Assembly: GCF_014204975.1 (NCBI RefSeq)
Contig: NZ_JACHMM010000001.1
Span: 1,984,001 to 2,048,000 of the forward strand
DNA length: 64,000 bases
Source of the DNA: Jiangella mangrovi
GTDB taxonomy: Bacteria > Actinomycetota > Actinomycetes > Jiangellales > Jiangellaceae
Direction: 5' to 3'
Of this stretch, positions 8,989 to 38,993 are shown piece after piece. A program made the translations under genes and the position numbers. The notes beneath the pieces were generated by a model. The model saw nothing but the letters and a program-made list of their open reading frames with translations, did not search any database and was not told the DNA's origin. Within the stretch, counting starts at the first letter, position 1. Each line of letters opens with the position of its first letter.

Positions 8989-10446
8989 TCACCGGGCCCG
9001 GGCGGCTGCCGGCACCACCTCGTCATCGGCGGCGACGGCGTCAGCTGCCGGTTCGCGCTCTCCGACCACGCGACCGGCGCTCAGCAGTCCGGCCAGCGCC
9101 GCCACGCCGCCGGCCACGAGGATGCCGGCGAAGGTCGCCGGACCGGGGCCGGCCAGGGCGACCGCGGCCCCGCTGACGGCCAGCGCGGCCGCCGTGCTCA
9201 GCGACCCGGCCAGCTGAGCGGCGCCGACGTTGCGGCCCTGGTTGGTCGAGTCCGACGCGGCGAGGGTCAGCAACGACAGCACCGGCGACGCCAGCCCCAT
9301 GCCGACGCCCGCGAGCGCCCAGCCGGCCAGTCCGACGCCCGGCGGCACCGCGGGCCAGGCGAGCAGCGCCGCCACCGCGAGTCCGGCCGTCATCGCCGCC
9401 AGCCCGGCCCGCAGCACCGTCGCCGGCGGGTAGCCGTGGTCGCGGGCCTGCAGCCAGGAACCGAGCGCCCACATGACGCCGGTGAGGGTCAGGCTGATGC
9501 CCGCCGTCGTCGCGGTGAAGCCGTGCACCAGGGTGAGCAGCAACGGCAGCCAGGCGCCGACCGCGCCGATGGCAGTCGCCGTGAACGCCCGCTGAGCCAC
9601 GACGGCGGGCAGCCCGCGGCGGAGCCGGAACGTGCCGCGAGGGAGCAGCCGCACCGCCGCGATCCCCACGCCTGCCGCTCCCGCCACCACGACGGCGACG
9701 GCGGGGACGGGGTCGGCGGCCAGGTGCTCGCCCGCCAGCGAGAGCCCGAACGCCGAGGCCGCCGCCACGACCGCCCACGGCAGCACCGCCAGCGCCCCAC
9801 CCGCCCCACTCGGCCCACCCGGCCGGGCCGCGGACGCCGTCGACGACACCGCCGTCGTTGACGACACCGTGCGCAGGACCGGCCGAAGGACCAGCCAGAC
9901 CGGCACCAGCACCGCCAGCGCGCCCAGGAACACCCAGCGCCACCCAGCCGCCTCGGTGACCAGACCGGTCAGGAACGGCCCGACGACGGACGGCAGGATC
10001 CAGGACGCCGCGAACAGCGAGAACATCCGCGGCCGCAGCTCTTCCGGCAGGGCCCGCGCGATCAGCACCATGATCCCGACGTCGATCAGCCCCTCGGCCA
10101 GCCCGCTGAGCAGCCGGCCGGCGATCACCTGCGGCATCCCGCCGGCCGTCCCCACCAGCACCTGCGCCACCGCGAACGTGACCACGCCGGCCCGCAGCGG
10201 CGGCACCGGGCCGGCCCGGTCGGCCCACACTCCGGCCAGCGCGAGCGAGGCGACGAAGGCGGCGATCGGCGCGGCCGCGGCCAGTCCGAAGCTGCTGACG
10301 GCGTCGAAGTCGCGCACCAGCGTGGGCAGCGCGGTGCCGACGGCCCGGTTCTCGAACGCGCCGAGCGTCACCAGCGCCACGGCGCTGACGGCGAGCGGCA
10401 GGTGGGCGCGGCTGAACAGCGACGGGGACGGCGGACGAGGAGGCAT
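8989..10446 (-). CDS. MFS drug-efflux-type transporter (DHA2-like)
   Basis: A 485-aa membrane protein with about 12-14 helices and the early MFS motif FENRAVGTALPTLVRDF, typical of drug:H+ antiporters of the DHA2 kind. I place the start at the ATG at 10446 (MPPRPPS). GGAAGG lies 9 bp upstream, and a MerR/SoxR-type promoter is spaced exactly as at the quinone oxidoreductase gene 38994. It follows the tetR gene in the same direction, with the promoter lying in the tetR 3' end. Export of a redox-active or toxic compound under SoxR control is inferred. Confidence 0.88.
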   Translation of the reverse strand: MPPRPPSPSLFSRAHLPLAVSAVALVTLGAFENRAVGTALPTLVRDFDAVSSFGLAAAAPIAAFVASLALAGVWADRAGPVPPLRAGVVTFAVAQVLVGTAGGMPQVIAGRLLSGLAEGLIDVGIMVLIARALPEELRPRMFSLFAASWILPSVVGPFLTGLVTEAAGWRWVFLGALAVLVPVWLVLRPVLRTVSSTTAVSSTASAARPGGPSGAGGALAVLPWAVVAAASAFGLSLAGEHLAADPVPAVAVVVAGAAGVGIAAVRLLPRGTFRLRRGLPAVVAQRAFTATAIGAVGAWLPLLLTLVHGFTATTAGISLTLTGVMWALGSWLQARDHGYPPATVLRAGLAAMTAGLAVAALLAWPAVPPGVGLAGWALAGVGMGLASPVLSLLTLAASDSTNQGRNVGAAQLAGSLSTAAALAVSGAAVALAGPGPATFAGILVAGGVAALAGLLSAGRVVGEREPAADAVAADDEVVPAAARAR

Positions 10447-10484
10447 GCCCTCCACCTTCCAACCTCAACCGGCGTTGAGGTCAA
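10447..10484 (-). promoter_or_regulatory. SoxR/MerR-type promoter of the MFS gene
   Basis: Read on the minus strand: TTGACC (10484-10479), a 19-bp spacer containing the dyad CCTCAAC-GCCG-GTTGAGG (plus-strand 10463-10480), a weak -10 GAAGGT (10459-10454), 7 nt, then the ATG at 10446. A 19-bp spacer with a central dyad is the hallmark of MerR-family activation. The layout is identical to 38956-38993. Confidence 0.75.
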
Positions 10485-11213: not shown

Positions 11214-11262
11214 GAGAGCACCGCTCTTGACATCCGCGGTGCAAAGAGAGAGCATTGCTCTC
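11214..11262 (+). promoter_or_regulatory. TetR operator pair over promoter of 11298 gene
   Basis: A perfect 15-bp palindrome GAGAGCA-T-TGCTCTC sits at 11248-11262, and a related imperfect one (GAGAGCA-CC-GCTCTT) at 11214-11228, centres 34 bp apart. A consensus -35 TTGACA lies at 11227-11232, so the two sites flank the -35 and cover the -10 area. The arrangement fits repression of the divergent gene, and probably autoregulation. Confidence 0.7.
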
Positions 11263-38464: not shown

Positions 38465-38941
38465 TCAGCCGCAGCTGCCGCCGTCGTCGACCTCGATGAG
38501 CCGCCGCGGGCCCGGACCGTGTTCCCCCAGCTCGTCGTGGGAGTTGGCCAGCCCGCAGTTGCGCATCGACAGGCAGCCGCAGCCGATGCAGTCGGTGAAG
38601 TCGTCGCGCAGCTGCTGCAGCCGCCGGATCCGCTCGTCCAGCTCGGCCCGCCACTGCCGGGACAGCTTCTCCCAGTCCTTCTGGTTGGGCGTGCGGCCGT
38701 CGGGGAGGCTCGCCAGCGCGCGGTTGATGTCGGCCAGCGGGATGCCGACGCGCTGCGCGATGCGGATCAGCGCGACCCGGCGCAGCGTCGGCCGCAGGTA
38801 CCGGCGCTGGTTGCCGGCCGTGCGCCGCGAGCTGATCAGCCCCTGCCGCTCGTAGAAGTGCAGCGCCGACACCGCGACGCCGCTGCGCTGCGACAGCTCG
38901 CCGACGCTCAGCTCGGACTTGTTCCACGCGACGGTGTCCAT
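38465..38941 (-). CDS. soxR: SoxR, redox-sensing MerR-family activator
   Basis: A 158-aa regulator with an N-terminal MerR helix-turn-helix ([21 protein letters not shown], about 11-31), a dimerisation helix and the [2Fe-2S] motif C118-x2-C121-x-C123-x5-C129. Actinobacterial SoxR responds to redox-cycling compounds and activates quinone reductases and efflux pumps. The ATG at 38941 gives the standard family start. It is divergent from a quinone oxidoreductase whose promoter bears a SoxR-type box, and the MFS promoter at 10447-10484 bears a near copy. Confidence 0.93.
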
Positions 38942-38955
38942 GCGGCGTCCTCTGC

Positions 38956-38993
38956 TTGACCTCAATGAAGGTTCAGGTTCTAGCGTAACGGTC
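38956..38993 (+). promoter_or_regulatory. SoxR-dependent promoter of the quinone oxidoreductase
   Basis: TTGACC (38956-38961), a 19-bp spacer holding the dyad ACCTCAA-TGAAGG-TTCAGGT (38959-38978), TAGCGT (38981-38986), then 7 nt to the ATG. The over-long spacer and dyad are typical for MerR/SoxR activation; the short gap to the ATG implies a leaderless transcript. Confidence 0.85.

Follow-up and report, generated by a model that had tools for sequence, protein, structure and literature searches.

A probable SoxR promoter at the tetR-MFS junction

Within a 64-kb stretch of the genome of Jiangella mangrovi (64,000 nt, hereafter the window), a tetR-family repressor gene is followed in line by a gene for an MFS transporter, and 28 kb away soxR lies beside a putative quinone oxidoreductase (QOR) gene. 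The element considered here is the region 10446-10484, which ends on the start codon of the MFS gene. The original prediction held that this region is a promoter of the same geometry as that of the QOR gene, that soxR controls both genes, and that both messages are leaderless. From the analysis described below, we regard it as highly probable that 10446-10484 is a SoxR-activated MFS promoter, one of six in this genome, which is locked onto its start codon and whose message is probably leaderless; control of the MFS gene by SoxR appears very likely in its own right.

The resemblance between the two promoters was confirmed, with 20 of 25 bases identical over TTGACC plus spacer, a 19-bp spacer, 7 nt from the -10 hexamer to the ATG, and 38 nt from TTGACC to the ATG in both. 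Between the -35 and -10 elements of the MFS promoter is a CCTCAA-N6-TTGAGG dyad with 12/12 arm bases, and the spacer contains most of the resulting box, CCTCAACGCCGGTTGAGG. The putative -10, GAAGGT, is of the NANNNT type, which many further boxes in the set share; it lies 7 nt before the ATG in the window and, in the remaining aligned copies, 6-7 nt before it. With the tetR stop codon at positions 10467-10465, the final tetR codons share their sequence with the box, and the promoter region begins within tetR. Besides the MFS and QOR sites, no further dyad site within two mismatches is present in the 64-kb window.

On the scale of the whole genome, which is a single contig of 7.16 Mb, these two promoters are members of a larger set rather than the special pair that had been supposed. 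A genome scan for the box, proposed with the original prediction and carried out here with the 16-base exact pattern TTGACCTCAA-N6-TTNAGGT, gave five exact sites and a sixth that departs from it at one position; beyond these, matches begin at three mismatches. Given the base composition of the window, 0.00007 exact matches would be expected in 7.16 Mb. At three or fewer mismatches the real pattern gave 7+8 matches and a reversed pattern used as a control 1+1; of the 15 real-pattern matches, four are the same sites on the opposite strand and five are unrelated matches with three mismatches. All six sites lie 37-38 nt before a start codon (6/6), and the genes that follow encode three MFS proteins (that of the window included), the QOR, a luciferase-like monooxygenase, and a SnoaL-like/DUF4440 protein.

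The soxR product passes the NCBIfam equivalog TIGR01950 with 216.4 bits (curated cut-off 116.9) and is the only protein over that cut-off in the whole genome (216 bits). Its alignment to E. coli SoxR (2zhg_A) shows four cysteines and a 13-residue helix-turn-helix stretch that is the same in both proteins, and it has the C-x2-C-x-C-x5-C motif of the [2Fe-2S] cluster of SoxR. The MFS protein carries an MFS_1 domain (PF07690, E 2e-29) and is a putative exporter; no curated drug-exporter family was matched over its cut-off, partial matches (EmrB, SdrM, and others) being far below. The best NCBIfam match of the QOR is quinone_pig3, at 153.3 bits under a cut-off of 296.8.

Table 1. Coordinates of the features discussed, in window positions.
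Feature	Position	Strand	Basis or remark
MFS transporter gene, 485 aa	8989..10446	-	ORF, ATG at 10446; PF07690 MFS_1 E 2e-29
GAAGGT, putative -10 of MFS promoter	10454..10459	-	after 19-bp spacer; 7 nt to ATG
SoxR box CCTCAACGCCGGTTGAGG of MFS promoter, arms perfect	10463..10480	-	predicted, sequence match
tetR-family repressor gene, 238 aa	10465..11181	-	ORF, PF13305/PF00440; 3' end overlaps SoxR box
TTGACC, -35 of MFS promoter	10479..10484	-	sequence match
soxR, 158 aa	38465..38941	-	TIGR01950 216.4 bits; E. coli SoxR 2zhg_A E 9.5e-51
TTGACC, -35 of QOR promoter	38956..38961	+	sequence match
SoxR box CCTCAATGAAGGTTCAGG of QOR promoter	38960..38977	+	11/12 arm bases; predicted
TAGCGT, -10 of QOR promoter	38981..38986	+	after 19-bp spacer; 7 nt to ATG 38994
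Putative quinone oxidoreductase gene, 326 aa	38994..39974	+	ORF (open reading frame), domain and NCBIfam profile search

Conservation of the box and its co-occurrence with SoxR

An MFS orthologue is present in 11 of the 12 Jiangella genomes, this one counted, and in all 11 it starts at 37 or 38 nt and is preceded by the box, which never has more than one mismatch and has that one in three genomes. Together with the orthologue of G016 (genus g6), which lies in two pieces on two contigs and has a degenerate box with three mismatches and an ATG at 38, these make 12 aligned promoter copies. Conservation over them is 0.97 in the arms, 0.78 in the -10 hexamer, 0.61 in the N6 centre, and 0.53 in the upstream sequence; kept arms around a free centre are the pattern of a protein-binding site and not that of coding sequence. 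The distance from TTGACC to the ATG is constant at 37 or 38 nt although the intervening sequence varies. G015 has a more distant MFS homologue, with about 40% identity, which combines an exact box with an ATG at 38; the box is absent from most of the other distant homologues examined. The nearest named genome, found in one scan (11 loci), was that of Jiangella ureilytica (L053, 84%).

The MFS promoter occupies the tetR-MFS junction. In the eight other Jiangella genomes in which a script located the tetR stop (three have no located stop), that stop is the TGA within TTGACC in six, G009 among them, while tetR runs 15-20 nt beyond the start of TTGACC in the other two (G004 and G005) and in this genome as well. 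The two genes are adjacent and in line in 10/10 other Jiangella genomes with the MFS gene. The description of the MFS gene as lying behind an unrelated tetR is thus only half apt: there is nothing to connect TetR with the box, yet the tetR stop falls within the promoter and the genes are neighbours in line. G009 has no MFS orthologue (best match 37% identical) and carries, behind tetR, a one-mismatch box that is an orphan SoxR site (L130). On the other side of tetR, between it and a divergent epimerase gene, operator-like inverted repeats GAGAGCACCGCTCTT and GAGAGCATTGCTCTC occur at 11214-11228 and 11248-11262; because both have counterparts in all 12 Jiangella loci examined, TetR probably represses its own gene and the epimerase gene.

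In a set of 393 genomes from the class, 124 have both an exact box and a SoxR over the cut-off, 99 have SoxR alone, one has the box alone, and 169 have neither; put differently, 124 of the 125 genomes with an exact box have SoxR, and one of the 170 without SoxR has the box (Fisher p 1.5e-38, uncorrected for shared ancestry). A looser search of 60 relatives, with one mismatch allowed, gave 29 with both, six with SoxR only, two with the box only (G038 and G057), and 23 with neither. This co-occurrence, the six-site set, and the conservation in 11/11 Jiangella genomes support the predicted control of the MFS gene by the soxR at 38465; that SoxR binds and activates here, and precisely where the message begins, is what we infer from sequence evidence of this kind.

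Seven other Jiangella genomes have a second SoxR, 52-55% identical to that of the window (L064, L075, L079, L090, L124, L129, and L135). It adjoins a box TTGACCTCAA-N6-TTGAG[AC]T in six of the seven loci, L124 being different, and beside it, in six loci (L075 excepted), is a common protein start with ATG at 38-39 nt. In L064, the single one scanned, this protein is an MFS protein (PF07690); in L075 and L124 the frame from the ATG is short, at 29 and 71 codons, respectively. A second SoxR as the regulator at the window's own sites was rejected, as this genome has one SoxR over the cut-off.

Distance to the start codon and Shine-Dalgarno sequences

Besides the six loci of this genome, 180 box regions were analysed under one rule, which takes as the start whichever in-frame ATG or GTG comes first at a distance of at least 30 nt from TTGACC. 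The sites examined were 88 in Jiangella (three without an ORF), 20 in other Jiangellaceae genera (four without), and 80 in other families (nine without). In Jiangella, 82 of 82 places in G001-G011 were taken, one of 83 rows being the reverse reading of a neighbouring row. The other Jiangellaceae genera are represented by 18 of 54 rows and two more, and the other families by 78 places, with G338:C208, G323:C24, G323:C259, two of G346, G281, and G319 left out. All figures for other families, and all pooled figures that contain them, hold among the matches listed.

The start codon lies at 36-39 nt in 65 of the 85 Jiangella sites with an ORF and in 40 of 71 in other families; overall the count is 110/172 sites with an ORF, or 110/188 sites. 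Non-box TTGAC anchors from the same loci have a start at this distance in 5/107. When ATG or GTG is counted in any frame at the 80 other-family sites, 24 fall at offset 37 and 26 at offset 38, against a background mean of 2.35 per offset over offsets 60-119. Another any-frame peak, at offset 29 (17/88 in Jiangella, 6/20 in other Jiangellaceae, and 24/80 in other families), is excluded by the rule because such a codon straddles the end of the -10 hexamer and cannot be on a transcript from the promoter. Among protein-similarity clusters, 21/41 have at least one site at 36-39 nt, and 6/41 hold both such sites and leadered ones.

The second line of evidence is the Shine-Dalgarno (SD) sequence. For this and for the clusters, any in-frame start at 36-39 nt was taken, which gives 66 sites in Jiangella and 47 outside it, compared with 65 and 45 by the first-start rule; "outside" comprises the other Jiangellaceae genera and the other families. 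The median SD duplex energy at these starts is -2.9 in Jiangella and -2.7 outside, with 17% and 15%, respectively, at -6 or below. At leadered starts, it is -7.8 in Jiangella (11 sites) and -8.4 outside (25 sites), with 91% and 84% at -6 or below (p 2.6e-6 and 1.3e-10 for the contrast). The class-wide peak at 37/38 nt and the mostly missing SD thus speak for the prediction of a leaderless message.

Several observations weigh against this reading. The -10 of the MFS promoter is weak, GAAGGT matching the second A and the last T only. In the other Jiangellaceae genera, starts at 36-39 nt are a minority (5 of the 16 sites with an ORF), and site counts are not independent because sites share ancestry, while the binomial comparison, with the published 21% of Streptomyces coelicolor as base rate, assumes independent sites. 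Since 99 of the genomes with SoxR have no exact box, either boxes vary or the pattern is too strict. The single genome of the 393 with exact boxes and no SoxR over the cut-off is G057. SoxR is present in all 11 of its congeners in the set, and its absence from G057 may reflect a recent loss or an assembly gap. Of the 12 aligned MFS copies, 10 have no SD; that of G011 has an SD-like stretch (-6.9), and the window copy has a stronger one, GGAAGGTGGAGG ahead of the ATG, at -10.0 kcal/mol.

The QOR orthologues count on the same side. In nine of the 11 other Jiangella genomes the QOR starts 71-127 nt from TTGACC, each time with an SD (-6.2 to -10.2), and among these 11 only G011 has the start at 38 nt. 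The 38-nt form is the exception among QOR orthologues, and the QOR promoter, which the original prediction had taken as the reference geometry, is atypical for its gene. The nine relatives have a leader of 33-89 nt with an SD (L071, L072, L084, L092, L109, L113, L117, L128, and L139); it is absent from this genome (window 38987-38993) and from G011 (L144), which places the ATG at 38 nt, and QOR appears to have lost it in the line of descent to which this genome and J. ureilytica belong. In G005 (L102), beside soxR and a SoxR box, the QOR is down to a 22-codon remnant, its first residues fused to its last, with the ATG at 73.

The SD-like sequence of the window copy would allow SD-led translation from tetR read-through. 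SoxR may then act at the box while the working message is leadered or bicistronic, with the SD-like GGAAGG/GGAGG in use; the gap of 18 nt between the tetR stop and the MFS ATG and the tetR-MFS-epimerase order, which is preserved in the Jiangella genomes with the MFS gene, would fit such an arrangement. We consider it unlikely as the main route, in view of the ten copies that have no SD, the constant distance across variable sequence, and the leadered SoxR genes of the same genus, which mostly do have an SD. Leaderless and read-through MFS transcripts may both exist. That the dyad is instead an RNA hairpin, serving to terminate or attenuate transcription where tetR ends, is hardly credible: the inverted repeat is indeed located at a gene end, but its arm sequence is shared by six loci, in each case upstream of a start codon, the arm letters are conserved around a free centre, the box co-occurs with SoxR, and the QOR copy has one arm pair broken. 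A chance resemblance at a site that SoxR does not use, conceivable for a short motif partly within tetR coding sequence, is just as implausible given the expected number of exact matches and the retention of the box with every Jiangella MFS orthologue.

Proposed mechanism and comparison with known systems

For the SoxR-activated, start-codon-locked promoter that we favour, the following mechanism can be proposed. In SoxR, a member of the MerR family, the dimer distorts the 19-bp spacer once its cluster is oxidised. The dimer encoded at 38465-38941 would sit on CCTCAA-N6-TTGAGG within the over-long 19-bp spacer; redox-active compounds would oxidise its [2Fe-2S] cluster, and the resulting distortion of the DNA would let RNA polymerase use the -35 and -10 elements together. 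Because the start codon follows the -10 hexamer by 6-7 nt, MFS transcription most likely starts on the ATG and would yield a leaderless message. With its promoter squeezed into the end of tetR, the MFS transporter would have a redox input of its own, independent of the TetR repressor.

Beyond this locus, the start-codon-locked, probably leaderless SoxR promoter is a common design among actinobacteria. It seems likely that the actinobacterial SoxR response is largely a leaderless regulon, in which evolution has repeatedly fixed the promoter 37 or 38 nt ahead of the start codon and members of one protein family switch between a leaderless form, mostly lacking an SD, and a leadered form, mostly with one; there is a good chance, then, that the messages for redox-responsive transporters and reductases are read with no 5' leader. 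A resemblance between two promoters thereby becomes a testable six-gene regulon in Jiangella, and the wider pattern suggests a tie, across actinobacteria, between leaderless translation and one well-studied stress regulator. If so, the response may be built for conditions that impair normal initiation, such as the presence of antibiotics, whether self-made or foreign. Families with both leadered and leaderless members offer natural pairs for studying the gain and loss of a 5' leader.

No description of leaderless SoxR targets was found in the open-licence literature, by title or abstract start, among the matches listed, and no paper on Jiangella together with SoxR was found in the same literature. 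The nearest actinobacterial case is the SoxR regulon of S. coelicolor, which comprises six genes and includes a quinone oxidoreductase gene, as does the Jiangella set; its transporter is of the ABC type, unlike the MFS proteins here, and the word "leaderless" has no occurrence in the accessible text (PMC4146615).

The contrast with Proteobacteria rests on one paper, on Stenotrophomonas maltophilia, in which the SoxR promoter of the MFS gene mfsA was mapped and has TTGACC, a 19-bp spacer, the degenerate -10 CATGCT, and the box ACCTCAACTGCAGTTGAGGT (PMC4411124). The Jiangella MFS promoter shares the -35 and the spacer and has an equally degenerate -10. However, mfsA is divergent from soxR, whereas the Jiangella MFS gene lies 28 kb from soxR with its promoter in the tail of tetR, and the mapped start of mfsA is 39 nt upstream of its ATG, which makes that message leadered, whereas the Jiangella start is predicted to fall on the ATG (PMC4411124).

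The placement itself is that of leaderless mRNAs in Streptomyces, in which the 5' end coincides with the start codon or falls a few nt from it and 5-7 nt separate the -10 hexamer from the transcription start site (PMC4895711; PMC4681348; PMC8079986); the same placement is predicted here. In Streptomyces lividans, 88.7% of the spacers between -10 and transcription start site measure 5-7 nt (PMC8079986), a spacing that would put the start of MFS transcription on or next to the ATG. Genome-wide, the leaderless share of transcripts is 21% for S. coelicolor (PMC4895711) and, for S. lividans, 17% (PMC8079986), whereas the leaderless geometry is found at SoxR sites in 40/71 in other families (among the matches listed), 5/16 in other Jiangellaceae genera, and 65/85 in Jiangella.
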